The notes under the pieces: generated by a model
What the model saw: the letters and a program-made list of their open reading frames with translations, nothing else
Database searches by the model: none
Told to the model about the DNA's origin: nothing
DNA from: Macrocystis pyrifera
Lineage: Eukaryota; Sar; Phaeophyceae; Laminariales; Laminariaceae
Reading direction: 5' to 3'
Assembly: GCA_031763025.1 (NCBI GenBank)
Contig: JASSKH010000025.1
Span: forward strand, 1,116,001-1,180,000
Length of the DNA: 64,000 nucleotides
Program-made: the position numbers and the translations under genes
Shown: piece after piece, positions 1 through 35,174 of the stretch
Position numbering within the stretch: the first letter of the stretch is position 1
How the letters are laid out: each line of letters begins with the position of its first letter

Positions 1-67
1 CCCCCTTAGCTTTGCTGGAAATCGCCGTGGACAATTTGAAGAAAAGCGGTGAACTTGCTGTACTCAC

Positions 68-133
68 ATGAGCAAACCCCGTTTTCCATGCAACAGTACG
101 CGTCCGAGCAATCCACGTCCTCCTCGCACGCCA
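68..133 (-). CDS. Cysteine-rich peptide family, copy 1, exon 2 (rest outside window or unseen)
   Basis: Exon of 66 nt read on the minus strand. It follows an acceptor ending GTACAG and stops at a GTGAGT donor, and it starts and ends in the same intron phases as four paralogues further right. It encodes the family core C-x5-C-x4-CC-x5-C-S followed by a split codon (T plus two bases from the next exon); the middle reads CEEDVDCSDAYCCMENGVCS. The following exon would lie left of base 1, so this copy is cut by the window edge. No signal-peptide exon is recognisable between it and copy 2. The cysteine pattern suggests a small disulfide-stabilised secreted peptide. I recognise no named family, so function is unknown. 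Confidence 0.5.
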
Positions 134-272
134 CTGTACACGTGTACATTGCGGACGAAGCCTCGGGGTCAAGCAAAAAGCCGCCACTACAATAGCGAAG
201 GCACTGAGGGAACACTCCTGGCTATAAATATGCCGAAGTACAGGATATACCACATAGCGCGAGAATGTGACC

Positions 273-381
273 TATTACGGAGGTACATAGTTAATATGAC
301 CTATGGTTTACATAAAAACCCATATATTTACCTATTTTTACTAACAAAATTTGGTTCCGTTAACTATGAACCCCCGTAATA
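273..381. mobile_element. 109-bp MITE with 22-bp terminal inverted repeats
   Basis: The left end begins TATTACGGAGGTACATAG and the right end is the inverse of TATTACGGGGGTTCATAG. By eye 20 of 22 terminal bases pair. The interior is AT-rich and non-coding. The ends may include a TA target duplication, as in Tc1/mariner-type elements. The same termini bound the 3.28-kb element at 34303-37583, so this is probably its non-autonomous relative. Seen directly: the inverted repeat and the shared termini. Inferred: mobilisation by a related transposase. Confidence 0.75.
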
Positions 382-384
382 GGA

Positions 385-860
385 TGCTACAAGCAATATG
401 CTGCCGGCCCATCGTTATTCGCCGGGATAGTGATATCCGATTCGTTAGGATATGTCTGAAGGATAACGAATCTGCATGGTGCTCATGCAAATCGATTCTA
501 CATGTGACATTCCCTTGGACGCGGCCACGTCTCGCGCCTATATCAAAGTACGAGCACTCAAAACATATTTCCAGGAGCGGACGACATGTCGCTGAGGAGT
601 ACTCTCAGACACGTAAAATATTGCCTCGACACTCGGCCACCGAGAACAAACAAGCAGACGGATCACCGAATGCGCCTAGGCTCCTAGCGTGCACCCACAT
701 AGCTCAGCACCTAGACACTTCGTACAGAAGTCGCAACGTCATGTGGCACCAAGAATCGGACAAACACATCTGCAGCAAACCATGCAGATAGGTGTGGAGA
801 CATACCGCGTGCAGGACGTGACGTATGCGTTCGCCAAAAGCAGCTCCATGCTGATGAACC
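385..860. other. No supported gene
   Basis: This stretch lies between the MITE and the downstream end of cysteine-rich copy 2. The open frames on the plus strand have no recognisable domain, and composition is unremarkable. It may hold intron or intergenic sequence of the array. Confidence 0.4.
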
Positions 861-940
861 TTACAGACTCATTCCAACCCAGGCGAATCTACCTTGATGC
901 TGCGGATATCACATGCATCGCATTGGCCATTGTGACTCAC

Positions 941-1851
941 CGCATATGAGCCGGGTATTAATATTGCCACTTTGACATTCACACCGGTGTTCCGCTTGCT
1001 GGCCGTTTTCAACAGACCTTTTATGGCGTGCTGTTGCGGAGAGGGCAGGCAAGCAGTTGTGGGGGAAAACGTTTGTAACCGAGGACGATACTGTACTGCA
1101 AAGATAAGCGTGCGTTTATGGCTAACGGCTCCCGAATGGATGTCCAAGGGTCTAGCAAACACCAGCTATACCAATATATATGGCTCTATATGCTTGGGGA
1201 GCGTCCTTGCTTTTGTTTAATAATACGTCTTACCCAACCAGTGGCAACGGATACGATGTGTAGTCCACTCCCAAAACGGTGTGGACGATAGACAAATCGT
1301 TCAATGAAAGGTCTACGTTGGTGGCAATAACCGCATCGGGAGACATCGATCCCAGTAGCACTGTATTGTGCTGCCGCATAGCACATGTTCTGAAGGGGGA
1401 AATTCCACCCCACCCCGTTAGTGTTTAATTGGGACATGGGAAGACAACCGCACCAAGGAGGATGTTGCCCCCCCCCCCCCCCCTTCTCGCTTGCTGAGGC
1501 TATCGTGGGACACAACTTGCCTCTGCAGGCCTGCAAGTTAAAAGCGTGTATACTACAGCAGTACAGTAGTTGAGAATTGTGCAAAGTACAACCAAGCTAC
1601 CATGTAACGTATTTTGCGTGGGTGCATCCACCTCGACAAGCCTGTCGCCCCATAACGCCGCACAGCATGCGCGCAGGGTTGAGATGTATAGCCGGAGACA
1701 GCTCGCGCTCAAGCGCTAGCGGCAACAGGTTCATGCTTCCCCCTTTGCTCGCTATCGCCAACCACAGTTTAAGGGGATATGAAGGACTTACATGAACACT
1801 TGGCATTCCCCAGGCAGCAGAATGGATCGCAGTTGATGTCCTCCATACATA
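941..1851 (-). pseudogene. Cysteine-rich peptide family, copy 2 (exons 2 and 3; acceptor damaged)
   Basis: Exon 2 is 1792-1851 (60 nt). It follows an acceptor ending TAATAG, ends at a GTAAGT donor, and reads CMEDINCDPFCCLGNAKCS, one residue shorter between the second and third cysteines than its paralogues. Exon 3 is 941-1003 (63 nt): it encodes a C-E-C motif and a final cysteine, then a GTGAGT donor. Its start aligns with the other copies, but the acceptor dinucleotide there is CG instead of AG, so normal splicing of this exon looks impossible. A fourth exon may begin near 886 after CATCAAG, but I cannot confirm it. No signal-peptide exon is visible. I therefore call it a probable pseudogene; a nearby unannotated acceptor could rescue it. 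Confidence 0.45.
1468..1483. repeat. Poly-C tract, 16 bases
   Basis: An uninterrupted run of C within the predicted intron of copy 2. Runs of this length are prone to length error in assembly, so adjacent coordinates may be off by a base or two. Confidence 0.9.
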
Positions 1852-1959
1852 CTATTAAGTTGCAGATCACAAGTCGACACACACAGACAAGTAGAAAATT
1901 AGACAAGTTGAACATTGAATAGAGTATCGAAGCTGCAGCAGAAAAATAAATCACAAATA

Positions 1960-2780
1960 CTCGAAACGTTTTTTTTATTCATCCTCCGGCGGATCGGTAA
2001 AAATGAAGCAATATCTCACGCCCGACAGATCTGAAGTGGGATCGTGGGTTCAAATCTATCGGCGTTTCTGGACATGGCTACGTGGGACTGTGCATACATT
2101 GACGCACATCGTCCATGCTATTGCCATACGCACGATGAAATACCGGCCAATTTGGAGAGTGTGCGCATGCCACGAGATCGTATCTACACCTGTGATCCAC
2201 CCCGGACAGACGGGGACGATTCCGCAAAGTGTATGTACTTTGAGTCTGGAGTGTTTGCTGTAGACAATTGGCGACTTATAATTGCAGATAACTACGGTAC
2301 AAGCCAAAGGTGTGGATGGGTCAACACACAATGATATGCACGTGACAAGGCCCGCATACATAACCGGACGAAGCGATTTGACACATGGTTGAGGACGTTG
2401 TCCAACTCTTGGTTGACAAAACACCTGTCTGATTTGAAATGGTACCTGGCACCCGGTACGTCACTGTGCTGGGACCCTCGAGGCGTGTTCTTCGCAGGTG
2501 TTCTTGGGCTGCTTACAGAAGACTTGTACATAGTGTTATAATGCAGTACAGCAGTAGCAAACGAGAGAATTGACCCAGGGTACAGACGACCAATATTACT
2601 GGTAGGCAAATATTTTCGGTAGCCATTTCATATGAAACGAAGGTCACGATAATATTTTCCAGAAGCCAAATTGTTCTCGAAAAGACACGAGATGTACGAG
2701 CACAGTGCTGTAGTACAGTATTTATATGCACAGTAGAAAAAAAACGTTATTTTTATGTGCACAACATGATATGGGTATTT
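1960..2780. other. No supported gene
   Basis: Open frames of up to about 120 codons exist on both strands, but none has a recognisable domain or array-like exon. A tRNA-box-B-like GGGTTCAAATC occurs near 2046 without a partner box A. I see nothing else. Confidence 0.4.
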
Positions 2781-2831
2781 CGTAAGTTATAGCGGATTCG
2801 AGGAACCTATTCCTATGTACCCGTTAAACAT

Positions 2832-3552
2832 ATGTCTTTGAGAGGGGAACACGAGGAGAGACCTCGTAGAGTAACCTCGATCATCACCACGTCTTCTCCT
2901 CACCTACACCAAACCCTACGGGAATCAAGTACGACCAAGCCTAAAAAAATAGAGGAATATACGGCAACACAACAACCTACTCGTGCACGCATCGTCTTGT
3001 TCTTCGTGACCTCCAGAAGGCTGAGGGTATCAGTGGCTGTCTGTGAGGAAAAGGCACGCGTCGTCTACCCTTGGGCAGATATCGCCGAAGATACGCAACC
3101 CAGGTCGTTCGGTCCAAGAACCGAAGAGGGTCACAGGGAAATGGAACCCACAGCAGCAAGAAGCGGTCGAACACGGCAGAAATAACGATTCGGTGAAGAT
3201 CGTTGCGCATATTGTCGCAGAAACGGACTCGAGCTGCTTTACTGATGCGGCAGAAGCAACTGCGACCACAATTGCAGCAGCATAATCGGCGACGACAGCC
3301 AGCACTGTGCCAGGTCGCTACACATCTGCATTGACGTGGAACCCAATATCGTCTAGAAAAACGATGACTGAGATACAAGTCCACGGTTCAAGTGTACACA
3401 TTACATCTCTTGGCCGCGGTCGGGCTTTGTACTTACCAAAAGAGAAAAGAGGCAATAGTACGGACTTCGTCGACGATCACATAAATTTGCAACAGCTGCA
3501 CGAGGCTGTCAAGAACATCGCCAAGACGGACTCATCAAGACGTTGCGTTTGA
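2832..3552 (+). pseudogene. Unassigned open region, two overlapping frames, one internal stop
   Basis: An ATG at 2832 opens 117 codons to 3185, basic and serine/threonine-rich. A second frame is open from about 3043 to a TAA at 3283-3285 and continues in the same frame to 3552, so roughly 510 nt are interrupted by a single stop. The second frame has ordinary protein-like composition with alternating charged and hydrophobic residues near its end. No domain is recognised. It could be a decayed gene, part of an old transposon, or chance. No relation to the flanking cysteine-rich array is visible. Confidence 0.22.
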
Positions 3553-3559
3553 CATCGTG

Positions 3560-5100
3560 GAGCGTACCAAGTCATCCAGCGACGCCTGGTCACGGTTCAA
3601 ACATTCCACGTAGTAGTTCAGATACGACTAACGAGAAGCGGAGGATCCACCGCATGTCCAACACTATGTATGGCGTTGATTGCCGGTGATAGTCCGGAGA
3701 GGTTCGAGCTGAGGGTTGACCCGCGCAAGGAAACAGCTGGACGGAGTGCCTATGACCGCGAATATTGGCGAAGAAATATAACCATCATCAGGGGCTGATC
3801 AGAGCAGCACGTAACGTATCGCCGGGTGCTGGTTACTTACGGATTTTTCACGTGTATGATAATCATGATGTGATAATCATGAAAGCTCTCTCATAGCCGT
3901 TCGGGAGGATGAAATCTCCGAATAATAACCCAGGCGCTGGCGGCGTCGACAGACGTGGTTGAGAGCAGACGGGTCTGCCAGATACGCAAATTTACCCGGG
4001 GAACATGGCCCCAGACTGCTGGAAGCTAAAGACCCAGTCATCGGCGGGCAGGGAAAATTGTGGATTATAACCATGACCTAGCGGACTGCCGGAAACGAGA
4101 GCCGAGCAGGACCGGCAAGAGTGAAAAAAGGTATTCCGGCGAGTGTTACGCTTATGCCAACATTGGACCCCCCCGCAGCACAATACTGTAACATAAAATA
4201 CGAGGAGCCCACTCTCAGGAATTGATCCAAACAGATCACTCTGGGCGCATCCGTTCACGAGGCACGTCTCACGGTGGCCTTAAACACGGTGCGGGATGAA
4301 GAGTGGCTGCTGGAGTGCGGGGAAAGCGAACACATAACCGGTGACACTAGAGGGCCACCCGAGTACAACGAGTAACCCGGACAGTTTCTTCATGCTAGTT
4401 GACATGCGAGAGGTAAAGCGTTACAGGAAACAAGATCTAGACTTGACACAGTCTGCATCAACTAAAATTACAGCTATTCTGCAGAGAGTGGCATTCATTC
4501 GATTACAACCGAACTTCAATAGCAGTCAAAAGGCCAGTGATGGACATTATGATAGCCGTCATCGGTGGAAGTGATGTACATACCACATTGTATGGCAGAA
4601 CTAAGTGTGTTCTATTGATGGGATATGATGAAAATTCACCCAGGGACATTTCGGTTAGTGACGCTCCTGGGGGCACTTTAGTTCATTGGGCTGGTGGAAT
4701 TGGGGGCACATAATCCTAAACGTGCTCTCGAAATAAAAAAAAAAACAAAATATGCGCACGATGGTAGCGACCGCAGGATACCAGAACCTCGCAGGGGCTG
4801 CCTACGGTGTACTTCTGTGGTGTGTGCCACAATTTCGTCGTTCATCGTCGTTCATCGCTTTATGCTCGGTATACACACAGATTCGTACTCTCAATACACA
4901 TGGCATTTCATGCGCTGTTTGAAGGTACATAAAGCAAGAGGTGCCTTCGAAAATAGAAGCACGTAAGCACGCCACCAAAAGCGATGACGACGCCCGTAGG
5001 ATAGTTGACGTGTCTGGGGCTTGTCTGGGACATGTCTGCTGTGGTGTATGCTGTAGGTGTGGTGGTCGTCATATATAAACCAACCCTTGCGTATATAATC
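3560..5100. other. No supported gene
   Basis: Short open frames only. This segment separates copy 2 and copy 3 of the array and does not obviously match the repeated unit seen further right. A short A-rich tract lies near 4732-4748. Confidence 0.4.
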
Positions 5101-5107
5101 AAGATGC

Positions 5108-5947
5108 CTACAAACCCGTTGGACCTGAGATTCCCAATAACCGCGTGCATCAATGGTTGCAAAGAGAGTTGTTTCCGATGTACACTATTGGACATACCAA
5201 ATGCTTTGTGCGGGTCCACATGACTCACTGCATTCTGACGTTCTGTCCCACATTTTGTCCTTGCACTCGCAGATGTCCTGCGCTTGGCCGCCGCCTAAAA
5301 CAGATTCTAGTTTCTGCACTGATATGGATAGAGTGGGGACAATACGGACGCGGCATGAATAGCGAGAACGGCACATATTGTCGACATCCATGCAGCTGTT
5401 TTCGGAAGGTGAAATGTGTGGTTCAAGAGGATGTGAGACATTTGTTTGCGTCACACCGTCAATTGTGTTGCAATGATATATCATGCGGTGTCAGCGCTTT
5501 GAAGCTATCTTCCGTATGGCAGAGAAATATTCTAATATACAATTTTGTACAGCTGTATTGAACTGTACTCTGAGCAAACGGACGACGTCTATCGTGATGA
5601 CGTGTTTAAATCGTCGTTCGAAGAGAAAGAGAAACGTTTTGGAGGCGAACAGGGTTTGTCACCCTAGGTAGGTGCTTATCTATGCAGTAGAACGTGCAAC
5701 CTAATTCCAGAGTACACAGAATGCCGCATTTCGCAAATCGCCTCAGTGAGCTCCTCGTGGAGTCACCGTCTCATGTACCTTGCACGCGGGCATGGGTTTT
5801 GGCAACATAAAACCAACCAACGGTGACAGGTAGCTACCTCTCTTCGTGCGATATATGCCAGCCAAGCGCGCCTCAAGCACTTACATGAGCACATTCCATC
5901 TTCTTTGCAACATTTTCCATCCTTGCAGTGGCTGTCTTCGCTGCACT
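5108..5947 (-). CDS. Cysteine-rich peptide family, copy 3 (exons 2-4)
   Basis: Three exons on the minus strand: exon 2 at 5885-5947 (63 nt), exon 3 at 5229-5294 (66 nt) and exon 4 at 5108-5124 (17 nt with TAG). Acceptors end TTCACAG, TGTTTTAG and ATCTCAG; donors are GTAAGT and GTGAGT. Exon 2 reads CSEDSHCKDGKCCKEDGMCS. The T left at its end joins GC at the start of exon 3 and so rebuilds the last cysteine of a C-S-C motif. Exon 3 adds C-E-C and a final cysteine; exon 4 adds a few residues and the stop. Nine cysteines are predicted in about 45 residues. No signal-peptide exon was found upstream; the nearest compatible one is at 14800-14872. Function is unknown; secretion is inferred from copy 5. 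Confidence 0.55.
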
Positions 5948-7539
5948 CTGTGAACGCACAAATTGCAGGCGAGGGGGCACAGGGTTAGATAAAGGTGACT
6001 ATGAACACATAATATCAAATCTACGCTTAATGTCTAGATGCACAGGTTTGTGTACGTTCGGATACACACACTAGAAATGCCGCAGGACCGGGGGTTTCGC
6101 ACTTGGAGGTATGTTTTGTGTCCACCTGTGCGTTGCCACAGAGCAGTAAATGCATGCTAGTTGTAGAAGCTATTTGACGACGGTAACACGGGCTGATAGT
6201 GATCGTACCTCACGGTTCTACCTGCCAACCACAGATGGGGAATATTCGTGGAGCATCTTGAAAAAGTTGAAATAATAAAATTAATTTGTTTGTTCAGTGC
6301 ACGAACTGTAATTGTCCTGTTACATCAACCCTCGGCCAACAGTTACACGTAAACGAGAAGACACTCGGTTCGTCGTACGTGCCCTGCGCGGTCTGGCAAG
6401 TCCCTCTACGGTTGACTGACAAGGGGCATGAGTGAGTTCAGATACATTAGACGGGAAATTGTTGTAGTAAACATCGTGTGCCCCAGAAGCCTCTATGTGT
6501 ACCGTAGGAGCTGCACTTCAGCGAAAAGTGAACACGGTCGGGCTTTACGACCGAGATGCCGAAACAAGGCGTTTGCTTTTCCTTAGGGTCTGCAATCAAC
6601 GCCTGGTTTTAATGTTGTAGAAAAGGTGAATAATGTCCTGGTATGTTCTTCGAAACTATTGATTCAAAGTTCTGCTTAGTATTAATTAATTGAGAACTGA
6701 GGGCGACACCCTCATTTGGATTCTTGTAGTATCAGGTGACGAGAACCATCAAGAGGAGGTAAAGAACACGTGAATCAACCAACTCCCCCTTACCGTTCAA
6801 CTGGCCTTGGACAACATGCACGTTTAGATTTTCGACCATGAAGTAGTGGGTTATGCCGATCCCTCTGGGCGACACGAATCTAGGACTGCCGGAAACATTG
6901 TTCTGCAGCCGTGAAAGAAATAGAGAATGGTACGATACTCTCCATGTTGCGGGTGATTATATCAGGGAAACATCGTATATGTCGTCAAGCATCCATGTTG
7001 TTGCGTCGACCCTGTGCTCGGCGGAACTGAGAGCTTCATAGTGAGCTTGGGGTGCTTGTACTCAACTACATTGAGACAACATTTTGCTTTAGCATACATC
7101 GTCGACACAACAACCTCGGCAGCGCGTGTAGCCTGATGTTGGCGTGGTGACCAAAACCAGCTACCAAAGATGGCACTCCCGCCTCTGGTACAGGAATAGT
7201 GGCAATATTGGAGTGCTTGCAATATTTGCGCTCTGAACTTTTACTTCTCCAAACATTCTCCCGAAGAAAGAAATAACTTGAGGTAAATTTGAAAAAAACG
7301 GCTAACACGTAGTTCAAGAATGGTAGGATTTGATCGAAAGTAGAGGTTATATTTGTTTATCTGCGCGACAGGCCTATACACACCGAGCATTAACTCGATG
7401 TAGAACGCATATCCAACGGCACCATCAACGAGACAAAAGCACCGCTGCTCTACAAATTGCACAACAACTGGAGCTATGAGAGCGGAGGCCATAAAGGGTA
7501 CCCTGAGCATGACGCAGAGGCGCAAAATTAGAGATGTAA

Positions 7540-8030
7540 AGCTTCAACCGGCGACATGGAGCGCTCTCCAGCCGTGCGTGGTATAGGATTCATCACCTAC
7601 GGTAACTTGTGATGATATTTACGGAGCTCGGCTGAGTCCGACCGTCTTGGAGAAGGGGGTCGAAGGAGAGAGCGGGACAACACAGCGATTGTTACGACTA
7701 TTGTGTGCAACATCTGCCCGAGGAAGGCTGAGAGAGAGGCGACTTAGGCGTGGCGCCTGTCTTGATGCTGTGCGTCGGCTGGTGTGCGGTTTTGTGTGAG
7801 GATGGAGCGTGGTGTACCCAATAACGCAGACAACACTAATTCAATTTTTACGGCGCATTGCCTCCCCTCCCCACCTACCGTCCTATTTTCGCTGGCGTCG
7901 CCTGCTCATCTTGTTTACTTCACTCGCAAACACACCGAAATCAAGATGGGAACATAGTTCACTCATTTTGAGTTGGAAGAAAAGTGAATATTGTTAAACT
8001 TCTGTCGCAAACACTTGCACTACGATAATG
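7540..8030. other. No supported gene
   Basis: Unit-internal sequence without an obvious counterpart in the other units. I see no domain or splice-bounded cysteine exon here. Confidence 0.35.
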
Positions 8031-8232
8031 TTCACGAAGTATCATTTGTCACGCCATACGAGCAGCAAACGTGTATAATGTTGTCTACAGGTAAGTCCGT
8101 ACATAGGAAATGTGATAGCCGTCAACGCAAAATTAGAGGGGGGGTCTCTTACTTGGCATGGTCTTGCAATGCCACCCCACACAGTCCTTCCTGGCGTGTA
8201 TGTTAGTTACTGTAGACCTACGACTGTACCGC

Positions 8233-8290
8233 AACCACAACAACTACAACAGCAACAACAACTACCACTACTACTATTACTACTAAAGTA
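8233..8290. repeat. Imperfect ACA/ACT trinucleotide tract
   Basis: A run of CAA, CTA and ACT triplets ending the 8040-8290 block. The same position in the next unit (9776-9880) holds a longer CTA/ACT tract, and a shorter one sits at 12300-12325. Confidence 0.8.
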
Positions 8291-8759
8291 CTATTAATAG
8301 CTCGTACAGTGGTGCTGGGGCAAAAGTGTATTTACTTGTAGTGGGTGGTAGTTGTTGAGAAACAAATGGTAGAAACGGCATTTTCGCAGCATTCCAGTTA
8401 CACAGCCTTACGACCATCAGACACATCGCAGCAAGACGACCGCGGCCAACGCAAACCGAGACATGCGACGCACGATCCCCTTGAGTCACTTGAAGGACGT
8501 CTGCTTCTGTAGACGCTGGGGTTGCGGAAACAGGATGTGTGTAAGTCTAGAGAGCTTTGATGGAATCGACAAGAGACCGACAGGTAGAAACTTAAACTGA
8601 CAAGATTTCAGACCGATATATAGGCAGACCGATAGATGTCCAGACATACATATCAAGTTAAGGACGGACGCCTATATACTTATCACAATGAGGAAGCTGT
8701 AAAGACAAAGAAACATGACAGCATCTAATCTTGGTCAAGAGTTTCACGTGATAAAGAAG

Positions 8760-10300
8760 ACAACCAACTCATCGTACGTGTTTTACCAATTTAAGCAAGT
8801 GAGTTTACTGTTGACCGAAGGGCATGGGTTAGCTTGTATATTAGACGCGCGATTGTGGTACTAGACACCATATGCCCAATAAGCGTATATGTGTATCGCA
8901 CTTCAAGGAAAAGGACATACGGTCGAACTCCCGACATGTCGAGACGAGACGTTTGCTGCTCGTTTGGGTCTGGAACCTACGCTGGACAATGGAGGATTGC
9001 AAAGAGACGAACAAAACACCTGGTGCCTGGTACCTGGTACGTACTCCGACAAACTATTGATCCAACGTTCTCCTTGTATTCATAAACATGATAACTGAGG
9101 GTAACCCCCCCCCCTATGAAAACCATAAAATGCTAGGTGACGCGAACCACAAAGAAGAGGTAACTGAACCCACAAATCAACCTACATCTCTTACCGTGCA
9201 CCTGGTACTAAACAATATGCCTGCATTTGTTTTCGACATGAAGCAGCGTGTTAGAACGATCCCTCTGGCCGTTTCTATGACTACCGGAAACACTGTGATG
9301 TAGCAGTCAGATAAGGTGAAAGTGGTAAGATACTCTCGATATTGCTGGCGATGGGGATGGGGATACATTGCAAGTGTTGGCAAGCATCGTTCTGGTTGCA
9401 GCAACCCTGCGATCGGCAAGACTGAGAGGTAGAGAGCGAACTGTGTGTGTTTCTACACAGGCACATCGATATAACACGTTACTTCAATGTACACCGTCGA
9501 CATAACTACTACGACAGCGCGTATCGCCTGACGTTCAGATGGTCTTCAAACGCAACTACCAAAGGCAGCTCTCTTGCCACGGGCACACGGAATAGTGGCA
9601 AGATTGCCCGCGATTGATGGTTTGTCAAAACACACGAATAGAAAACGTGTGCTATGCTGTCTATAGGTAATGCTTAGATTGGATATGCGATAGTTGTCAA
9701 CGCATCACCATACGGGGAGGGTTTCACTTGGCATCATCTTGCAATGAAACCACACCTAGTGGTCCTTGGCCCTACAACTACTACTACCACTACTACTAAT
9801 GCTACGGCTACTACTACTAATACTCTTACTGCTACAACAATTACTACAGCTACAGCTACTACTACTACCACTTCTTGAGTACTAGCTCGTAGAGGAGTGC
9901 TGGCGCAAAGTGTCCTGTTCTAGAAGTAGATCGTGTTTGTTCATGTCAAATCTCGATAGTAACCGCTTTTCACTACATTCAAAATACACGGCCTCACGCC
10001 ATTTAAAACACGGCAGCACGGCGACCGCGGCTAACGCAAGACGATATTTGCGACGACAACCGCCACGAGTTACTTGAAGCTCGCCCGTTTGTAGACGCTG
10101 AAGTTGCGGAAACAGGATATGTGCAGGTTTATGAACGTTTAATGGAACCTACGAGAGAGACAGTTACACTTGTATCGACTGACAAGCACATAGGCAGACA
10201 TATAGGCAGACCGATAGATGGCCAGATATATCGATCAAGATAATGTTGGACATCTACACACGCAACACAACAAAGAATCTGTAGAGACAAGGAAAACAAC
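8760..10300. repeat. Extra array unit lacking recognisable exons
   Basis: This segment matches 6360-8690 block by block, including the microsatellite at 9776-9880. It is followed directly by the next gene-bearing unit, and no cysteine-rich exon is found in it. It looks like a partial duplication of the intron or spacer part of the unit. Confidence 0.55.
9776..9880. repeat. CTA/ACT trinucleotide microsatellite
   Basis: An imperfect run of CTACTAC and ACTACTA triplets at the conserved position within the array unit. Confidence 0.85.
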
Positions 10301-10552
10301 AGCCTCATTACAGTACCTTAAACGCGTTTCGGAGCCTACCTCGGCGTCATACTTCCAACGCCGCGAATTCTAAGCCAAGAGCATTCAGAAGTATTTCCAG
10401 CTTCAACAACGGTGACGCAGGTCGTCCGGGCTGGCGGCGCCGCTAAGCCAGGTTTCCATTGCGAAGAAACCCAGCATTGAACACGTGTGACAACGTTACA
10501 GATTGATGTTCAACGCTACTTGCATTCGGTGATTGAAGCAATGCAAGCATCG

Positions 10553-11455
10553 CTATCGCAGGCCATGGGCTGTCAAGGTGAACGTCATGTATACATCCGA
10601 AGTGACAACTGTTTGACCTAGCGTTCACAATAACCGGATGCAACATGGACATGATGAAAGTTGCGGAGTGCCATGTACAAGATTTTGCGGCCTATGTGTG
10701 GATGGGTGGATCAAGTGCGTTGTGGGTGTCAGTGCGACTCACTGCATATGCCTTCTTCGACATTGCCGGAATCGCACTCGCACATGTCGGTCGCTGCGCC
10801 GCCTGGATAAACAGACTTTCCATTCACCGCTGATGTGTATAGAGTGCGGACAATGCCGATGCGATAACGAGAACGGAACATATTATCGATATATATTCAG
10901 GTGCTTTCGAAGGAATAACCATTGGTTGCAGAGAATGTGAGGCATATGTTTGTATCACACCGTCAATTATGTTCGTAATGGTGTAGCATGGGGTGTCAGC
11001 GCTTTGAAGCGTTATCCCTTATAGCAGACAAATATTCCAATCTACAAACGTGTGCAGCTATTGTTGAACCGTACCTTGCGCATCCGACCCACTTCTATGT
11101 TGATGAGGTGTTTACATCGGCATTCCAAGGGAAAGAGAAGCGCATTGGAGGCGCACAGGGGTAGCCACGCGAAGTGGGTGTTTAGATATGAAGTATACAA
11201 CGTGCAACCTAGCCTACAAATAGACGGAATACCGAAATTTGCGATTTTCCTTAGTAAGCCTCTCGCGGAGTGACGACCCGTAAACACTGCATGCGGGCAT
11301 GTGTTTGGCAAAATCCAACGGACCAACGGTGACAGATCACTACTTCCCCCTTCGCAAAACCAATGCCAGTTAAGCGCGCCCGGCGTACTTACATGAGCAC
11401 GTCATGTTATCTCTGCAGCACGTTTCTCCCATGCAGTCGTCGTTGGTCTTGCACA
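10553..11455 (-). CDS. Cysteine-rich peptide family, copy 4 (exons 2-4; altered C-terminus)
   Basis: Exon 2 is 11393-11455 (63 nt) and reads CKTNDDCMGETCCRDNMTCS. Exon 3 is 10743-10802 (60 nt) with C-E-C and a final cysteine. Exon 4 begins at 10617. Acceptors end TTCACAG, TATCCAG and CGCTAG; donors are GTAAGT and GTGAGT. Junction phases match copy 3, and the exon 2/3 junction again rebuilds a C-S-C cysteine. In copies 3 and 5 exon 4 stops after about five codons. Here the aligned TAG is replaced and the frame runs about 15 residues further to a TAG at 10553-10555. No signal-peptide exon was recognised before 11455. An open 91-codon frame starting at ATG 11682 overlaps this exon in another frame and is probably intronic. 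Confidence 0.5.
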
Positions 11456-12309
11456 CTGTGAACGCACACATTGTAGGCGAGAGTGCACAGCGTCAGGAAG
11501 AAGCCTACGGTGAACACGGCGTTTTGATTGTACGCAGGACGTCTGGACGCACAGGTTTGTAGAGGTTCGTAAACACCTTCCCGAATAGCCGCAGGATTGT
11601 GAGATTCGCATGTAGCGGCATCTTTTGTTCCCACCTGGGCGTTGCCACAGATCAGTAAATCGTATTTATTTGTAGGAGCCATGCTACGATGGTAACACCG
11701 CCTTATAGTGATCGTACATCACAGCTTCACCTGCGACCCACTACCGGGAAATAATAAGTGCATTTCAGCAAAACCAAAACTAAAAAATCATATATTTTGT
11801 TCGGTGCGCGAACTATCATAGTCATGTTGCATCAGCCTTCGATCAACAATTATACGTTTGAAACAAGAAACCTGCTCGCCCGACGTCCTTCGCATATTTG
11901 TGCAAGTGCTTCTACGGAACAGAGGCAAAGGGCACGTGTTAGGTTGTATGCACACGACGCGGGATTATGGTAGTAAAAATCATTTACCCGACAGGTTCTC
12001 TATGTGTACCACGTAGCAATTCCACTTCAGCCAAGACTGCCTGCGGTCGTGCTCTACACAAGAGATGCAGAAACTTCGGGTTTGCAACTCGTTTGGGTTT
12101 GGAATGAACGGTTGGTTTTTGGTCCATTTTGAGAGACGTGAACAGAAGTGCGTGGTACAGTTTCGAAAGTGTTGAGCAAAGGTTCTGCCTAGTATGCACA
12201 AGGTTTAGAACGGAGGCCAAGCCCCTCCCTTTTTGGAACATCTAGCATCACTTGACGCGAACCATCAAGAAGAGATAACTTAACACACACAAATCAACTT
12301 ACTACCACT

Positions 12310-13010
12310 ACGAGTACTACTATTGCTGAAGTACTAGCTCGTAGAGTTGTGCCGGCTCAAATGTGTCTTGTACTGCGAGTGGGTGGTGTTTTTTCATGTG
12401 AAATCGCGATATAAACGGTTGTTCGCTGCATTCCAAATACCCAGCCCTCTATCCGCGCTACACACCACGGCAGCCATGCAACTACGGCCAACGTAAGACG
12501 AGACACGGGACGAACAATTACTACCCCGAGTACGTGAAGCTGGCCGACTTCTGTGGACGCTGAGGTTGTCGAACTCGGGTAGGCGCATGTCTAGGAAACG
12601 TTGATGGGATCAAAGAGAGACCAACAGTTAGACTTATAACCTGACGGGCATATACCCAAACATATACGAAGACCGACGAATGTCCAGACACGGCTATAAA
12701 CGCATCTCGACGAAGAGGTCGTACAAGTCAATACACATATCGAAGACATGTGACTGCGGCCAACGTAAGACGAGACATGGGACGAATAATTACCCCGAGT
12801 ACGTGAAGCTGGCCGACCTCTGTGGACGCTACGGTTGTCCAAATCGGGTAGGCGCAGGTCTAGGAAACATTGATGGGATCGACGAGAGACCAACAGTTAG
12901 ACTTATAAACTATATACCCAAACATATACGAAGACCGACAGATGGCCAGGCACGTCTATACACGCATCTCGACGAAGGGGCAGTATAAGTCAATACACAT
13001 ATCAAAGAGG
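12310..13010. repeat. Tandem duplication of about 280 bp inside the array
   Basis: 12470-12745 and 12755-13005 are close direct copies, for example both contain CGAGTACGTGAAGCTGGCCG. More distant relatives lie at 8440-8690 and 10000-10290. The similarity between the adjacent copies is visibly higher than between array units, so this duplication is younger than the array. Confidence 0.75.
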
Positions 13011-13267
13011 CCGTATGGACAACTTGATTACCAGCGTATCTTGGCGTCATATTTTCCACTTCGTCAATCTCAGGTCTAGAGCATTCCGACGTCTTTCTAG
13101 TGTCTACAGGCGGTGCCGGGTGTCTTCCAGACTGGCTGAGCCGCTACGACTACTTACCAATGCGAGTAAACCCACAGTGATTCGGTGCTGAAAACCGTTG
13201 CTTCATGCATTGCTTTCGGATCTTGTGCATTATCAAGGTGCGCCTGCCGTGTACACGATAGAAACGC

Positions 13268-14872
13268 CTAAACAACCGTTGAACCTGACGTGCACAATAA
13301 CCGGGCGAATTATGGTTGCGATGAGAGTTGCAGAGTCCCATGTACAATAGTGTCGGCCGATCAAATGCGTTGTTCGGGTCGACACGACTCACCGCATGTA
13401 GAATCTCCATCCCAATTCCTGCCCTTGCACACGCACTCGTCCTCCGCTTGGCCGCCTGGGTAAACGGACGTTACGTCCAACACTGATACGGATAAAACGG
13501 AGACAATACAGAAGCGGTAGCGAGAACGGTACATGTTATCGAGACATATGCATGTACGTTAGAAACATAAATTCGTGGTTTCAGAGAATTTGAGGCACAT
13601 GTTTATGTCACAACGTCAGCTGTGTTAGCAATGGTGTATCATGCGGTGTCAGCGCTTTGAACCTTTCTCGCGTACGGCAGATATGTATTCCATACTACAA
13701 ACTTGTGCAGCTAGTATCTGACCATACCTTGCGATATCCGGACCTCTTGCATGTTTATCAGGTGTTTATTTTGTCAATCAAAACTGAAGAAACACGTTTC
13801 GAGGCCCAGGGGTGGTCACCTTAGAGAGGAATTTTCACATAAAGTGCAACGTGCAGCCTAGCGCTGAAGTGTACGTGATGCCGCACTCTTGGTGGTGACT
13901 TGCGCATGTGTATTGCATGCTGACACGTATTCTGGCAAATATCGAACGAACCAACGTCGAGAGGTAGCTTCCACGCCCTTCGCTTAATAAATGCCAGTCA
14001 AGGACGCCCGATGAACTTACTTGAGCACATAAAGTTAGCTTTGCAGCACTTTCTTCCGAGGCAGTCGTCGTCAGTCCTGCACACTGTGTGGTCACACATT
14101 GCAGACGAGGGGCACAGCGGCAGGTAGAAAGCCATCGTGAACATAGCGTATAGAAATCGTGCAGAATGTCTGGACATACAGGTTCGTACAGGTTCAGATA
14201 CGCACTCCAGAATTGCAAAGGATTATGAGTTCCGCATCAAGCGGCATTTTTGGTGTCCGCGTTTGCGTTGCCACAGATCAGTAAGTGCATGTTATTTTTA
14301 GAAGCCATGCTACGATTGTGATAGTACAAATATTCTACCCAATACGTTTCGACGTGTACCGCAGCAATTGCACTTCAGCAGAACCTGCATACAGTCGTAC
14401 CCTGCTTCCGAGATGCCAACGCCAGGTGTTGCGGGCGGCGTCTTTAGGCCTGGAATCAGCGCTTGCCTTTCGTGGGTTGTGAAGAAGGTAGAGGAAGTAC
14501 CTGATATGAACTATGTACACATGACTCAAACGCTATGTGTACAGCGGTATGCAAAACGTTTAGAAATGAGGGCGAGACCCCCCCTTTTAAAGCATCTACC
14601 ATTACGTGTCGCCAACCACCAAGAAGAGGTAAGTGAAGGGCACGAACAAATACTCCCTCTGCCGCATATTGTAGGCATCTCCTGTTTCCGTATGTTGCGG
14701 AGCAGTCCATGTCTGACGGGCAAGCGATGGGGCCGAACCACGGAAGCTCGGTGTGGACTTTGCGTTTACACATGCTACAAAAATGTTTTTTTATCACACC
14801 TTGTGCCAAGCCCGTGGGTATCATGGCAAGGACCACGAACCCGACCAGTAGAAGCAAATCCATGGCCCTCAT
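13268..14872 (-). CDS. Secreted cysteine-rich peptide, copy 5 (complete four-exon model, 71 residues)
   Basis: Exon 1 is 14800-14872 (73 nt), exon 2 is 14021-14083 (63 nt), exon 3 is 13393-13455 (63 nt) and exon 4 is 13268-13284 (17 nt ending TAG). The total is 216 nt with all three introns in phase 1. Exon 1 starts at a true ATG and encodes MRAMDLLLLVGFVVLAMIP followed by TGLAQ, a classical signal peptide with a short N-region, hydrophobic core and small residues before a likely cleavage site. Its donor is AAG|GTGTGA. Exon 2 reads CRTDDDCLGRKCCKANFMCS and exon 3 carries C-V-C and a last cysteine. The exon 2/3 junction codon is AGC, so the C-S-C of the paralogues becomes C-S-S and eight cysteines remain. 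I expect a secreted, disulfide-rich peptide of about 47 residues. Function is unknown; defence, signalling and wall-associated roles are all possible. Confidence 0.62.
14640..14722 (-). pseudogene. Degenerate extra cysteine-rich exon inside intron 1 of copy 5
   Basis: On the minus strand this stretch begins C-P-S-D-M-D-C, matching the C-x5-C start of exon 2. In another frame it ends C-G-R-G-S-I-C-S-C, matching the C-x5-C-S-C end. The two halves are out of frame with each other and no GTAAGT donor follows, so it looks like a frameshifted exon 2 relic. It is continuous in frame with the signal-peptide exon if intron 1 is not removed. Confidence 0.4.
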
Positions 14873-14889
14873 GTCACGCTCCTAGTCCG

Positions 14890-15360
14890 GTTGCGGTGCT
14901 GACAAGCAGGGAATGTGATAGACGGTGAGATAAGAGGAGACGTGTGGAATGATATAGTGTGGATCACGTTGGTGAAGAGAGTTTTACACAAGAATAGGGG
15001 TTGTCTGCATGGGACAGAAACAAGACGCACATAGGAGCTTTCTACCTACGCAAGTACCCTATAAATGAATGAGTAGCTGGTGCACTGTTCGTCAGCAGCC
15101 AGGAGGAAACATGATGAACCGGTAGTAGTTCAAGCCCGCACAGATACGTGGGATACAGCTCGAAAGTTTGCCGGGGGTGCAACCGGGCACTACTTTTGGA
15201 CCTCCAGCACGGAGTTTATTCTTGGGGGATAATTTCGATAGACAATTGTCGTTCAAAATTGAGGGCTACGTGAAGCTGAACATAAGCAGGATCGCACACT
15301 AGGGGTTGAGGTTTTATTTAACGGGGAGATTGTGGTAGATGTTAGTTGCGGCAGTAATAT
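14890..15360. other. No supported gene; possible upstream region of copy 5
   Basis: No coding feature is recognised. Because exon 1 of copy 5 starts at 14872 on the minus strand, its promoter should lie here, but I see no convincing core element. Confidence 0.35.
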
Positions 15361-15372
15361 AGTGCCGCTACT

Positions 15373-15860
15373 ATTGCCCCCAATTCTACTACTGCTACTC
15401 TATCACTACTATTCCTACTCATGTTACTTCTACTTCTATTGCTACCAATTGTAATACTAATCCTTCTGGTACTACTACACTACTACTGTACAAATACTTC
15501 CACTATTCCTATCACTGCTACACCTACTTCTACTACTACAACTGCTACCTCCACGACTGCTACTACTCCTACTTTCTACGACTACCGCTGCTTCCACTAT
15601 TACTACTACTCCTCCTCCTCCTCCTCCTCCTCCTCCTCCTCCTCCTCCTCCTACTACTACTACTACTACTTGATATTGCTACTGCTGCCGCTACCGTGAC
15701 CGGCTTCCGCTTCAGCTACCGCTGCTACTTCCGCTACCGCTACCACTACCACTAATGCGGCCTCTACTGCTTCTACCACCGTTGCAGGTACCGCTACCGC
15801 TACGGCAACGGCAACGGCTATCACTACCTCTAACGTAGCTACCGCTATCGCTACCACTAA
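15373..15860. repeat. Compound microsatellite (ACT/CTA, CTC, GCTACC)
   Basis: Long imperfect ACT/CTA tract, then an almost perfect CTC run at about 15611-15650, a CTA run, and an imperfect GCTACC hexamer tract to about 15860. Open frames spanning it (Ser/Tyr-rich on plus, Val/Ala-rich on minus) are products of the repeat and not genes. Confidence 0.92.
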
Positions 15861-16261
15861 CGATACTGCTACCACGTGTCCATATGAAGCAACACGGGCC
15901 TCCAAAAGGCTGGTAGTTCCGTTGCCACAACTTTGTTTTCGTATTGGTGAATAATGTTAGTCTAGTGTCCGGTTCGGTTTTCCAAGGGGTCGGGCAGTTT
16001 GCCGTGTGAGAGCTACGAGGCACATCCTGGTGGAATCAAGATACGGGCGTAGACCTAACCCAACTCCCAATCCTAGCCTAGACCTTGAACCCAATTCGAA
16101 CCCCAAACGACTCAGAAACGGACACGAAGCGCGGTGCGCCGCTTTTTTTTTTTTCCCCGAACCTGCGGTCTACTGTTCCCGCCCTCACACCATCAGTGAT
16201 ATTCGAATTCCTGGAAACATCTCGGAAACTTCCCCCCGTTCACGTCGTGAATTACTAGATA

Positions 16262-16594
16262 TTGTGTTTGAAGGGACAATGGCGCCCTCAGGAATGCGTC
16301 AAGTACCCGCGCGTAGGTGTTTCGGCAGCATATGCATATGACCCGGAATTAGAGTGGGGGATTTGCAACCAAAGCCCGTATTTCGTAGTTGTAGAACAGT
16401 TGATGAAACAGTACAAGAATCCTGAGGTTTTTAGCCCTTTCTTGCACTTTTTTGGGCCCAAGAAATTACTACCCATCATGGTAACGAGGTTTCTCCGCCC
16501 GCGCCATCTTCGAAGACGACTTTCTAAGAGATATATGATCCGCCTGGAGAACGGCAACATTGTAGTGAAGGCCTTTTCTTCATCGGTGATGTAG
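16262..16594 (+). CDS. Unassigned open frame, about 110 codons
   Basis: The open frame has protein-like composition: an acidic/aromatic stretch DPELEWG, a hydrophobic segment around FLHFFGPKKLLP, then a basic cluster RPRHLRRRLSKR. There is no ATG at its start; the first codon of the frame is TTG, so a real product would need an upstream exon or would be a decayed fragment. A partly overlapping frame (16006-16341) ends in RSRRELLDIVFEGTM and may be the same reading displaced by a frameshift. No family recognised. Confidence 0.25.
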   Translation: MCLKGQWRPQECVKYPRVGVSAAYAYDPELEWGICNQSPYFVVVEQLMKQYKNPEVFSPFLHFFGPKKLLPIMVTRFLRPRHLRRRLSKRYMIRLENGNIVVKAFSSSVM

Positions 16595-16799
16595 CCATTA
16601 TGCTACGTTTCAGCGTTTGTTCGAGATTTTTGTGCTACTCGCTCGCAACTTCGAGAGCACGAAAAAATCTTGTGAGTCGCTTCTGGGTGCATACGACTGC
16701 CTTCTGGCGCACCCGATACCCTCAATCATCCTGCCAAGAGCATCCCTCAATTTCGCGGGTTGTAGTATGCTGTGAGGAGCTGTAGCTATCCGCAAGTCA

Positions 16800-17850
16800 G
16801 GTGCAAACGTTCAGTTGGGGATTGGTTTTCGTCTCATTTGGTGCACCCCGAATTTAAACCAATTTCGACAACTGCAGCACCTCTAAGTCGAGAGGTAGGC
16901 CTCTGTTGAGAACGGGCGGGAGATCAATCTCGGGAGAAACACAAGCTGCTGTGATGAACCTCTTTGAAGTCACCATCGCTCTCTGGAAAGCACGAACCAG
17001 CCGAGGTTGTAAACGCAGCGTGTGTAACTAGCGATGTGTTTTTCTGTTCCCATAAAACATCTAAATAAGAGAGTGACCGGAAGCCCGGGAACTAGGGGAC
17101 GCTTGGGTGCCAGCGTCCCTTCAATGGATTAAGCTGTTCAAGATAACGCAAGGCATGTCTGTCCATATATTCCCCCAATTTCTTGAAGAACTGACCGCGT
17201 AGAACCAAAATGGCAAGCGTAGTAACGCCTAATATTGATGTTGCACTAAACCCAAATAGGCACAAGGCAACGCCTTATAACCGTTGCTTTCACCGCAGTA
17301 AAGTCCAAGTGTCCCCGCTATTTTTCGCGTTGTTTGCACTCACTAAGGCGCGAATATGAACAAAATACTCACTTAGGAATACCCGGCAAGAATGAGACAT
17401 AAAAAAATCACCATTCGGTAACGGGTTGGCAGAGGTTCATAGAACACGCGATCAGAACTTCAGCGTATATTTCCAACAACGACGACTCTATTTCATGCCT
17501 TACGAAAGTTAGGGCGGTTGCTTTCGACCGGCTCGTAAGGCGTCATGAAATCATATGCAAAGGGAGTGAATAATATATATACGTACAAGCAAGAATTCCA
17601 CTTTTTCTTTTTTGGCATGCTGCTCTCCGGCGGCCGAAGGTTCTTTCTCGCACTTTCGGCTGCAGGGCTAGCAATGGGGGCGTGGGTACACTTTGATGCA
17701 TGTCTGGATCTGGGCCGCGCTCCGTGGCGGTGCTCGCCGAGCTGGCTCAATTTAACAAGGATATTGTTTCCGCCTCGACGAGCTGAGTAGGCAACATGGA
17801 AAACCCAACATATCCTGAAATGTTTAGTTCACATTTTTTTCATGGGTGAA
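16800..17850. other. No supported gene
   Basis: Short open frames only. One plus-strand frame (17545-17790) begins with a hydrophobic stretch but is short and poly-Phe-rich from a T run, so I do not call it. Confidence 0.35.
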
Positions 17851-18779: not shown

Positions 18780-19170
18780 AATGATAGTTGTAGTAGTAGT
18801 AGTAGCAGTAGTAATACTACTAGTAGTCGCAGTATTAGTAGAAGTAGGAGTAGTATTAATAGTAGTAGTATGAATAGTAGTATGAATAGTATTAGCAGCA
18901 GCAGTAGTAGTAGTAGTAGCAATAGTAGCAGTAGTAGTAGTAATAGTAGTATCGATCGTACTACTACAGTAGTAGCAGTAGTAGTGGGTAGTATTAATAG
19001 TTCTGCTGTTGCCACGAGTCTGCTGCTGTAACCATGAGCATATTATACTCCTTTTACAGGCCTTAATTTCAACGTAGAGAGAAGCATTTTAGTGACAAGT
19101 GTAGATATGTTTTTCATTATGCCCTCAATCGTGTGTAGACCTTTACAGGAACATATTATTAGGATCGGGA
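18780..19170. repeat. AGT-microsatellite-headed dispersed repeat, copy 1
   Basis: An AGT/TAG trinucleotide tract (18785-18980) is followed by a conserved stretch beginning TGCCACGAGTCTGCT and containing GCCCTCAATCGTGTGTA. The same order occurs at 33641-34110, and shorter relatives lie at 20050-20170 and 34120-34280. Confidence 0.65.
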
Positions 19171-20164: not shown

Positions 20165-23100
20165 GTATAGATGCGATCATCAAGGTCCTTCACAAAAAGA
20201 AGGGATTTCGCTTCTTGCTCACGCAGCAAAGTTTTGTTGAAAATCGTCGCGTCCCGCCTCAGCAACTACTGCGAGTCCGAGGGAGTACTCCCGGGGGAAC
20301 AGTGCGGCTTCCGCCCCGCACGATCAACGATTGGTATGTTGTTCGTCGTGCGCCGGTAGCAATAGCTCGGACGACAGAGGAATATCTCCCCGTGCTTGTG
20401 CTTTATCGATTAGCAGAAAGCGCACGGTTCTGTCGACCGAGAGCTACTATGGGGGGTACTGACAAGCTTTGGCGTACCATCCAAGATGCTGACAAATATC
20501 CGTAGTTTCCACGAAAGCACGTGGGCTCGCGCGCGTACGGATAACGGCGAGCACTCGGAATGGTTCGATGTCACGTAGGGGCTTCGGCAAGGCTGCATGC
20601 TATCACCGTTACTGTTCGACGTGTTCTTCGCTGTTGCGCGACACGTCGTACTAGTACGCTTCAGCCAAGACAAAGCCGTCGTAAGGGATTTGGTTCAACA
20701 CGGTGATGCTGGAGTAGTCGAACAGAGGAGAAGGAGCCGTTGGCGTGCGTGAGAAGGGCTGTATGGGGCATGTTGTACACCGATAACGCAGGAATTGTTT
20801 CTTAAGTCAGCTGAGGGGCTCGCGAAAATGATGACAGTCATCGTGACTGTCTTCGAAGCAGCAGGCCTCACGACACCGGACAAGAATACAGAGACAATCG
20901 AGACAATGCTTTTACTAACAGCAAACCAGGCAACCCTCGCACCACCGCTCGTCAACGAAGCAGCAGGCCAGAGGTATGAACAGACGGCCCAGTTCTTATA
21001 CCTAGGTGGCATTATCCACGAAATCTCAGACCTCTCGTTCGAAATCGCCCAACGGATCCGTCTCATGCGGGCATGCATCAAACGGTTTAGCCCGGAGTTG
21101 TATGATAGGGCGACCGCTCCCCTTAGCCTGAAAGTCTGAATACTGAAGGCCGAGGTGATTGAGACCCGGCGGTACGGGTGAGTGACGTGGACCCTCAGAG
21201 CGGAACACTTTGCCACGCTTCGAACGGCTCACCACCAAGTGCGCTTGCGAGTCATTGGCTTCCAGCGATGATTTCGTACTGACCACGCCACTCTCTCGTA
21301 CGCGAAGGCCCTCAAGATGACACGTTGCGAGAGCGCCGAAACGACCATCCGTAAACGGCGGCTCTTCTTTGCGGGGGCCGTGGCACGGCAAAGCAAAGAG
21401 CGATTACCCAGTCGGGAAATGTGCGGGACGATGGCTGGTGGGGAGGCCCCGAGACCTGACGGTCAGTTTTAACACCTAAGGGTCAACGGAACTTGCCCCC
21501 TTAGCGTTTGGAGTTGAGACCGCACTGTGGTCCACCGCAGCAAAAAAGGCGGGGAAGTGGTACCGAGGGATCCTTCACGCAGCCGAACGGTTCATGGCGA
21601 GGTGGCATGAGGATGAGGCACAACTGAGTAGGCAGCGCCGCGCATCCGCCATGGGTGGTGTCCAAGGGAATGGCGGGAAGGTGTGTAAGAAGAGAGGTGG
21701 AAGGAAACCCGACCAAGGGAATGCGGGGAGGGGGGGGAACAGGAGGAGTAGAAGGGAAACTGCGGTGGACGAAAGTAGGAAGGAGACGGCAGACAGGGTA
21801 GCAAGGCACCAGGCAGACTAGGAAGTAGAACATGCCGATGCTACTCGTGTCGCCAGCTGGTGCAGCTGGTACGAACGTGGTCTTCCTTGGTCTTCATTTT
21901 GTTCTTGTTTTTTCTTCCTGCGGTTGATCCTCTGTGATTTTCGTTTCATTTCTTTCTCTTCCCTGCTTCGTCTGATAAGCCTTAAGAAAGGAGTCGTGTG
22001 GCGTGGGTGGATGACGAGCCGTTTTTGCTTGTTTTGTGTTATCTGACGCCGAGGGGCAGGGCACAGTTGACGAAGGCAGGACGGAAACGGCCGACAGAAT
22101 GGCAAGGTCCCAAGCGGACAATTAATAATAGGGAGAATCTGGCTATGCTACTTGTACCACAAACTGCTGCCGCTACCTGGAGGGTATTTTGGGCTTCGGA
22201 TTGCCTGTTATTTTCCCTTGGCTCTTAGTCTCATTCTGTTTGTTAGTAGAGTGTTTTTTTTTTTGTTCAGAGCGCTTTTTTTTTCAAGTGTCTGCCACAT
22301 CCCCTGCGGGGCGTCACGACAGTTTTTTTTCTTTTCTACTTTGCTTTGTCTCTTTCGATTTGTTTTCGTTTTTTTTTGTTTGCTTTCGTTTTCTCTAATT
22401 CATAGAATACGTATGTCGTGCCGGTCATATCCAGCATAGTGACATGGTATTGCACTGTCTACCGTGCTTACTGTTTACGTAACAATGTACAGTATTAATA
22501 GTATCTCTGTGGCGTAGTTTTGTGACCATCTCTCCAGGATTTAAGAATCTGGACGGACACTGGTTGTGCTGGATGTCGACGGGTAGAAAGAACGGATGAA
22601 TATGAACAACACACACACAAATTTTTCTCTTCTTTTTTTTTCTTTCCTTTATTCCCGTTTGTTTTGTGTCTCTGTCTGTCCCTCCCTTTTTACTTTTTGC
22701 TACCTGCTGTTTCTTTTTGGTTTGCTTCGTCGTCTTCCTCTTCGTTTTCGATTTTTTGTCTATAAGTTTCTTTTTTTTTCTCCTCTGGTGTACTTACTAG
22801 CGGAGTAAGTATGTTTGTTTTTGTTCTTGTCTCTGTTCTACACCCCTGGCGTAGCTTGCGAGCCTGCAATCTGCGAAAAATTGCGCATTTGTTTTCTTTT
22901 CCTGATTTCTTGCTTTTTTGCTTTGATCGATTACTTTTTTTTCTCTTTTCCCTTGTTGATTTTTGTTTGTTCGATATCGTTTTCCGAGTTTTCGACGTCG
23001 AGTTTTTTGTTTTCATTCTGTCTATTTTTTCCTGGGTAGTATGCGGTCTTCGCGGTTTCTGTGGCGATTTATACAGCGTACCGCATGTACCTGATACGCA

Positions 23101-33521: not shown

Positions 33522-33640
33522 CGAACACCCCTACCACCATCACCACCAACACCACCACTTGGGGTGTCACTACTACCAGCAGCTATATTAAATGCCTAAA
33601 TGCGCAATATTCCAGTCTTGGTCGAGGTGGTCTAGTAGTA

Positions 33641-33719
33641 TTGATAGTAGTAGTAGGAGTAGTAGTAGTAGTAGTAGTAGTAGCAGTGGCAGCAGTAGCA
33701 GTAGTAGTAGTGGTATTAA

Positions 33720-33817
<98 letters not shown>

Positions 33818-35130: not shown

Positions 35131-35174
35131 CGCGGGGCGGAAGTGGCGTGCAGGGAATGGCGGGGGAGGGGGAA

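Follow-up and report, generated by a model that had tools for sequence, protein, structure and literature searches.

Nasonin-6 of Nasonia vitripennis is described as the product of a signal exon followed by repeated single-exon cysteine-rich domains that arose by exon duplication, with introns in phase 1, and nasonin-2 is likewise presented as a secreted protein that starts with a signal peptide and carries, as nasonin-6 does, 4 to 5 cysteine-rich domains attributed to exon duplication (PMC2853521). The locus considered here, an array of small cysteine-coding exons on the minus strand, occupies positions 1 to 14,872 of a 64,000-nucleotide stretch of contig JASSKH010000025.1 (assembly GCA_031763025.1, positions 1,116,001 to 1,180,000; this whole stretch is hereafter called the window). 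It resembles the nasonins in these respects, and we count the nasonin-6 precedent as support for reading the array as one gene. However, each nasonin domain is defensin-like and takes one exon (PMC2853521), whereas here each domain takes two exons and has eight cysteines in another spacing, the comparison being one of descriptions and not of sequences. With a probability of roughly 0.55, we propose that the array is a single gene that has grown internally by duplication of an exon pair and would code for a secreted chain of eight-cysteine domains, open at the window edge. A preliminary description had presented it as a tandem set of separate genes for small secreted peptides; the five copies of its first domain exon are confirmed, but the signal exon falls outside the unit that was duplicated and has no counterpart elsewhere in the window. 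We regard the locus as partly misread, one growing multi-domain gene being more likely than a gene cluster.

The name SCREP (secreted cysteine-rich repeat protein) designates an architecture and not a family (PMC6262176). If the one-gene model holds, the locus shares with SCREPs a secretory signal and repeated disulphide-rich domains, a likeness of architecture alone; the main text of the SCREP article never uses the word exon. In the bivalent Hc1a-type inhibitor cystine knot (ICK) toxins of funnel-web spiders, both domains are reported to lie within one exon (PMC13172734), the duplication being inside that exon, unlike the present case. Furthermore, a review of exon shuffling maintains that the frame survives shuffling only if the module is symmetrical, that shuffled modules were found to be of class 1-1, and that the process is restricted to Metazoa, a restriction whose reason it asks for (PMC8001218). 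The unit described here is likewise symmetrical (phase 1-1), and its protein is presumably extracellular; here, however, the copying would have taken place inside one gene, and two exons make up the module.

Five copies of the first domain exon (exon 2) lie in one phase at 14083-14021, 11455-11393, 5947-5885, 1851-1792 and 133-68, and are numbered in this order as copies 5, 4, 3, 2 and 1. They measure 63, 63, 63, 60 and 66 nucleotides, and each is preceded by AG and followed by GTAAGT or GTGAGT; copy 5, of phase 1-1, reads C-x5-C-x4-CC-x5-C. These coordinates and the common phase, already given in the preliminary description, were confirmed by a regular expression of the layout (AG, a phase-1 start, C-x(4-7)-C-x(2-7)-CC-x(3-8)-C-x and a phase-1 GTRAG), which matched only the five known places on both strands of the whole window and gave no match in 40 first-order Markov versions of it. 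Protein profiles of exon 2 and exon 3, run against the six-frame translation of the window, clearly found only the known copies, with which the profiles had been built, the next best matches having E values of 0.78 and 0.57. In a leave-out test, copies 5, 4 and 3 alone recovered exon 2 of copy 1 (E 1.4e-4) and exon 3 of copy 2 (E 3.7e-4), each as the best outside match. Moreover, exon 3 of copy 2 as the sole query retrieved copy 4 at E 6.2e-4, copy 5 at 0.076 and copy 3 at 0.22.

A matching exon 3 had been claimed, without coordinates, for four copies and was located in four (copies 5, 4, 3 and 2), that of copy 1, together with the gene end, being expected past the window edge; the C-S-C of the claimed pattern, on the other hand, presupposes a start of exon 3 that is unlikely to be correct. 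In copies 5, 4 and 3, a second AG after a pyrimidine tract occurs 27, 27 and 24 bases upstream of 13455, 10802 and 5294, in the same phase, and in copy 2 an upstream CAACAG before 1030 provides the frame and the S-V-x-x-G motif of the other three copies, the AG before 994 being phase-keeping as well. This upstream AG, which all four complete copies have, is the probable start of exon 3, which then occupies 13393-13482 (90 nucleotides, phase 1-1), 10743-10829 (87 nucleotides), 5229-5318 (90 nucleotides) and 941-1030 (90 nucleotides) in copies 5, 4, 3 and 2; because the upstream start is used, the C-S-C vanishes. The alignment of the revised exons has 29 columns and one single-codon gap, and all four complete domains contain exactly eight cysteines in the spacing C-x5-C-x(3-4)-CC-x5-C-x17-C-x-C-x(9-10)-C, with x17 constant in the four (counted by eye). 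The downstream starts at 13455, 10802, 5294 and 994, which by eye give eight or nine cysteines per domain in uneven spacing, were rejected. Both starts keep phase 1, and the two may be used alternatively. The loop in exon 3 of copy 2 (1030-941) reads R-H-K-R, which we take to be a possible furin-type site and which has no counterpart in exon 3 of copies 5, 4 and 3.

The start codon and a predicted signal peptide lie in exon 1 (14872-14800; 24 codons, phase-1 end), whose donor, GTGTGA, is moderate (score 4.2). A scan of both strands of the whole window for an ATG, a hydrophobic core and a phase-1 donor yielded five start-exon candidates on the minus strand and none on the plus strand. Of these, the exon ending at 14800 scored highest, the candidate at 7492-7384 stood at the cut-offs, those at 35846 and 59948 were outside the array, and 1915-1792 was an in-frame start fused to exon 2 of copy 2. 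No second match to the region around the signal exon (15100-14652) was seen in the window, where the next best had an E value of 3. Past its donor the frame of exon 1 stays open, and a C-P-S-D-M-D-C stretch (14760-14640, minus strand) resembles the start of the domain exon 2; no fitting splice sites were seen around it by eye.

Self-comparison of the window disclosed tandem units (14319-12752 against 11693-10023, 66%; 12309-10712 against 6790-5198, 70%; 14315-13251 against 6180-5091, 67%), the heads of which begin near 14650-14675, 12294-12309, 9168-9198 and 6762-6790, and the signal exon lies upstream of the first of these heads, outside the duplicated unit. Unit 5, composed of head, exon 2, exon 3 and tail, extends over 12303-14651 (its head match starting from 14674) and unit 4 over 9186-12302, both with approximate ends, while unit 3, delimited by self-comparison and profile, covers 4857-6790 with an end that is not sharply defined. 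At 6791-9185 there is a unit without exons 2 and 3, in which the head (to about 8721) meets the tail (from about 8725) and of which the profile scan finds the head only (9198-8722). The flanks of copies 1 and 2 align weakly to the profile of the other three (E 7e-11, 1.6e-7 and 9.9e-5). Within the tail of unit 5 there is another duplication (13008-12732 and 12746-12459, minus strand, 85% identity). In addition, a 32-base element is found in the intron between exons 2 and 3 of units 5, 4 and 3 (13659-13628, 11006-10975 and 5501-5470, minus strand; 0, 3 and 2 changes), and the 63-column windows around it are the best conserved of the aligned unit (86%), above the exons; a search for the element in unit 2, tolerating up to 9 mismatches in the 32 bases, did not find it.

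All nine internal exons, as modelled, are multiples of three in length with phase 1-1 ends, so that each duplication adds a whole domain and leaves the frame unchanged. The chain of exons is open and stop-free through 248 residues, with one or two residues between the last cysteine of one domain and the first of the next; if spliced as a whole, it would join a secretory signal to at least two repeated domains in one protein, as in a SCREP. We envisage a single eukaryotic minus-strand gene that exceeds 14.8 kb and runs past the window edge, in which one exon would supply the signal peptide and each domain would come from an exon pair, with cysteines 1 to 5 in exon 2 and 6 to 8 in exon 3. The pair and its surrounding introns would have been tandemly duplicated within the gene. 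Since the nine internal exons are symmetrical and exon 1 is outside the unit, the simplest history would be that introns of one gene exchanged unequally and that the secreted chain gained domains in this way. We infer the splicing of all units into one message, the secretion of the product, its disulphides and its function. The likely work of such a chain would be extracellular binding through disulphide-stapled units with diversifying loops, the target being a pathogen, prey, a mate or a protease, and recognition, defence or inhibition can be offered as guesses.

Several observations weigh against a single gene. One intron would be 4.8 kb long, the one-residue link between domains is tight, and the donors at 10743 and 5229 are low (1.8 on a generic matrix). 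An exon-2 profile built from copies 5, 4 and 3 misses exon 2 of copy 2 (E up to 2), and a profile from copies 2 and 1 misses copies 5, 4 and 3. A possible 17-base last exon with a stop is common to copies 5 and 3. Finally, a looser start scan, which gave five candidates on the minus strand of 1-17000, four on the remaining minus strand and five on the plus strand, added to the weak candidate at 7492-7384 (ahead of copy 3) two further matches in the array, namely a possible separate start exon at 2992-2920 (ahead of copy 2), again weaker than exon 1, and an in-frame start at 13534 into exon 3 of copy 5. Exon 2 of copy 2 is joined, without an intron, by a hydrophobic stretch with an in-frame ATG (1915-1852) that could serve as a start of its own. 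This fused start is the best point in favour of separate genes; it may be a chance product of the pyrimidine tract, a start of its kind having been seen in 161 of 3,000 random sequences of the same composition (19 to 80 of 3,000 for the other copies).

The alternative that survives best is the original one, i.e., a tandem cluster of separate genes, each with a signal peptide and one eight-cysteine domain, which we hold to be possible, if distinctly less probable than a single gene. Besides the possible fused start of copy 2 and the two weak separate start exons, it draws on the claim that copy 5 closes to a 71-residue precursor, which can indeed be assembled from exon 1 (14872-14800), exon 2, the shorter exon 3 from 13455, needed for this closure, and a 17-base last exon (13284-13268). 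Copy 3 retains a similar last exon. Matching terminal exons had been proposed for at least three copies, and a stop is shared by copies 5 and 3, but the homologous stretch of copy 4 has a 5-base gap and no stop within the 61 bases printed, and in copy 2 a short AG-to-stop stretch was noticed by eye. Terminal exons were dropped as evidence; the surroundings of the stretch in copy 4 are homologous anyway, so that the match of copy 3 is not independent. A difficulty for separate genes is the signal peptide: exon 1 is outside the unit and has no homologue in the window, neither scan gave a separate start-exon candidate ahead of copy 4 or copy 1, and among five copies there is one strong signal exon, besides a doubtful fused start in copy 2 and the weak candidates at 7492 and 2992.

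The divergence of the copies bears on the remaining explanations. It had been argued that the sequence between the exons is badly diverged while the exons are maintained by selection. Badly diverged flanks fit copies 1 and 2, whose profile alignment is weak, but the statement is wrong for copies 5, 4 and 3, whose noncoding pieces are 65 to 78% identical by pair. For pairs 5-4, 5-3 and 4-3, the mean noncoding identity is 0.71, 0.69 and 0.71, against 0.78, 0.62 and 0.60 for exon 2 and 0.64, 0.63 and 0.55 for the revised exon 3, five of the six exon values being under the noncoding mean. The exception is exon 2 of pair 5-4, where 622 of 693 overlapping noncoding windows were no better, and in pair 4-3 only 7 of 1,025 overlapping noncoding 63-column windows were as low as exon 3. 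Replacement differences, counted outside the shared-cysteine codons, compare with intron differences as 0.38 versus 0.30 (p 0.15), 0.41 versus 0.32 (p 0.08) and 0.55 versus 0.27 (p 1.5e-7), an excess that is significant in one of the three close pairs, with uncorrected p values and non-independent pairs, and to which gene conversion in the introns could add. Replacement and silent rates show no clear difference in these three pairs (p 0.65, 0.19 and 0.66); an earlier calculation of their ratio with the shorter exon 3 (2.01, 0.53 and 1.08) is superseded by that with the revised exons.

The argument from diverged introns is thus reversed for the three closest copies, while selection on the exons finds support elsewhere. 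All eight cysteines are kept in copies 5, 4 and 3, and the nine internal exons of the array contain neither stops nor frameshifts. In a neutral simulation at 30% pairwise divergence (star tree, equal base rates), none of 20,000 runs kept all eight cysteines in three copies, and 904 of 20,000 stayed stop-free. Gap events in the main intron total 24 over the three pairs, and 18 of them have a length that is not a multiple of three; the exons have a single 3-base gap event, seen in two pairs. Moreover, the seven pairs involving copy 1 or 2 have silent differences (pS) of 0.58-1.02 and replacement differences (pN) of 0.26-0.45, with proportionally fewer replacement than silent changes in four (uncorrected p < 0.05). 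The exons are very probably coding; the pairs with diverged copies look constrained, and in the close copies the cysteines look fixed while the loops, in at least one pair, seem to change fast. Cysteines that stay fixed while the other residues outpace the introns in one close pair suggest an arms race or a recognition role.

Fast loops with retained cysteines, in one of three close pairs, also count in favour of a gene with alternative exon-pair cassettes, in which the signal exon is joined to one or a few chosen pairs to give many isoforms. All pairs are symmetrical, skipping preserves the frame, and the 32-base intron element is retained in units 5, 4 and 3. However, the element was not recovered in unit 2, nothing shows choice, and a constant downstream exon, which was not searched for, would fall beyond the window, and we consider such cassettes unlikely. 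Marginally less likely again is an array of immune or recognition type, in which one signal exon and many symmetrical two-exon cassettes of an undescribed eight-cysteine domain, with loops under diversifying selection, would serve combinatorial splicing, possibly in a non-animal organism, class 1-1 exon shuffling being said to be absent outside animals. As for a decaying array, in which some copies would be pseudo-exons and only part would be expressed, one unit lacks both exons and copies 5, 4 and 3 have replacement rates that do not fall significantly under the silent rates, but the intact frames of the nine exons, the splice sites in every copy and the eight cysteines in all four complete domains make it improbable. 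Chance open stretches within a noncoding tandem repeat or transposon, an idea to which the repetitiveness of the whole unit and the exons not being its best-conserved part lend something, are highly improbable in view of the empty Markov control, the cysteine simulation, the silent-site excess in four of the seven pairs with copies 1 and 2, and a unit profile that finds nothing better than E 2.3 outside the array within the window.

The preliminary description had known of no named family with this spacing, and our protein, PDB and Pfam searches agree, giving no significant match. The chain, queried against 5.8 billion proteins with the shorter exon 3 (each of the four complete domains being short by eight to twelve residues), gave 27 candidates and none at E up to 1, and a domain profile with the revised exon 3 gave one candidate in a protein search and none confirmed. 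A first PDB search had no match up to E 10, and a second had seven (best E 0.081), which we take to be six squash-type trypsin inhibitors or grafts and one ICK toxin. The C-C-CC-C order of exon 2 is shared with inhibitor cystine knot (knottin) peptides, but the domain of the locus adds three cysteines in C-x-C-x(9-10)-C, and the likeness is drawn from sequence alone. In Pfam, the best E values were 0.088 for CarbpepA_inh, 0.18 for CBM_1, 0.85 for EB and 1.3 for Squash, the latter three missing their cut-offs (9.5 bits against 22 for Squash, PF00299; 8.1 and 10.2 bits against 24.3 for EB, PF01683). EB is likewise a small cysteine-rich module, matched weakly by two of four queries with the shorter exon 3 and by one of four in the second search. 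The C-x5-C-x4-CC pattern presumably resembles defensin-like (nasonin), WAP and prokineticin/colipase folds; no Pfam match to these was listed up to E 10, the HMMER filters dropping most matches above about 0.1.

The domain profile, run against viral and prokaryote contigs, gave 75 and 55 pattern matches, none confirmed, the pieces being of exon size and the limit 1e-3, so that split genes may escape. No literature on relatives of the domain was found by searches that did not target this spacing as such. This absence is not proof of a new family, because split eukaryotic genes are a weak point of these collections, and a transposon in the window is also without a near-identical match. The eight-cysteine domain is apparently undescribed, and the gene architecture itself is of a known kind.

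The window was taken as eukaryotic because its G+C content is about 48%, its exons look spliced, and it contains no tRNA and no Rfam match at gathering thresholds. Pfam searches of 20 of the 60 listed open reading frames (ORFs) had nothing above cut-off. The transposon just mentioned is represented by fragments of a long interspersed nuclear element (LINE)-like endonuclease element at 28387-29244 (plus strand) and 20228-20331; its ORF has 16 relatives at 48 to 70% identity, of which two of nine scanned had a weak Exo_endo_phos match below cut-off, and in viral contigs it had one pattern match and none confirmed. The ORF at 34609-35400 (minus strand) has a weak OTU protease match below cut-off (E 0.011), and an overlapping frame (34728-35195) contains, by eye, a zinc-finger-like C-x2-C stretch. 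Microsatellites surround the array, long TAG/TAC trinucleotide arrays occur at 33633-33916, 18785-19001 and 15470-15670, and a 118-base unit is present in two repeats (93%) at 30720-30955.

What the locus would offer is an apparently undescribed disulphide-rich domain together with a view of a secreted protein in mid-growth, its exon pair being duplicated in tandem, in which diverged copies (1 and 2), closer copies (5, 4 and 3) and one exon-less unit stand side by side. It also indicates that, in arrays of this kind, a conserved exon flanked by a diverged intron is not a safe assumption.

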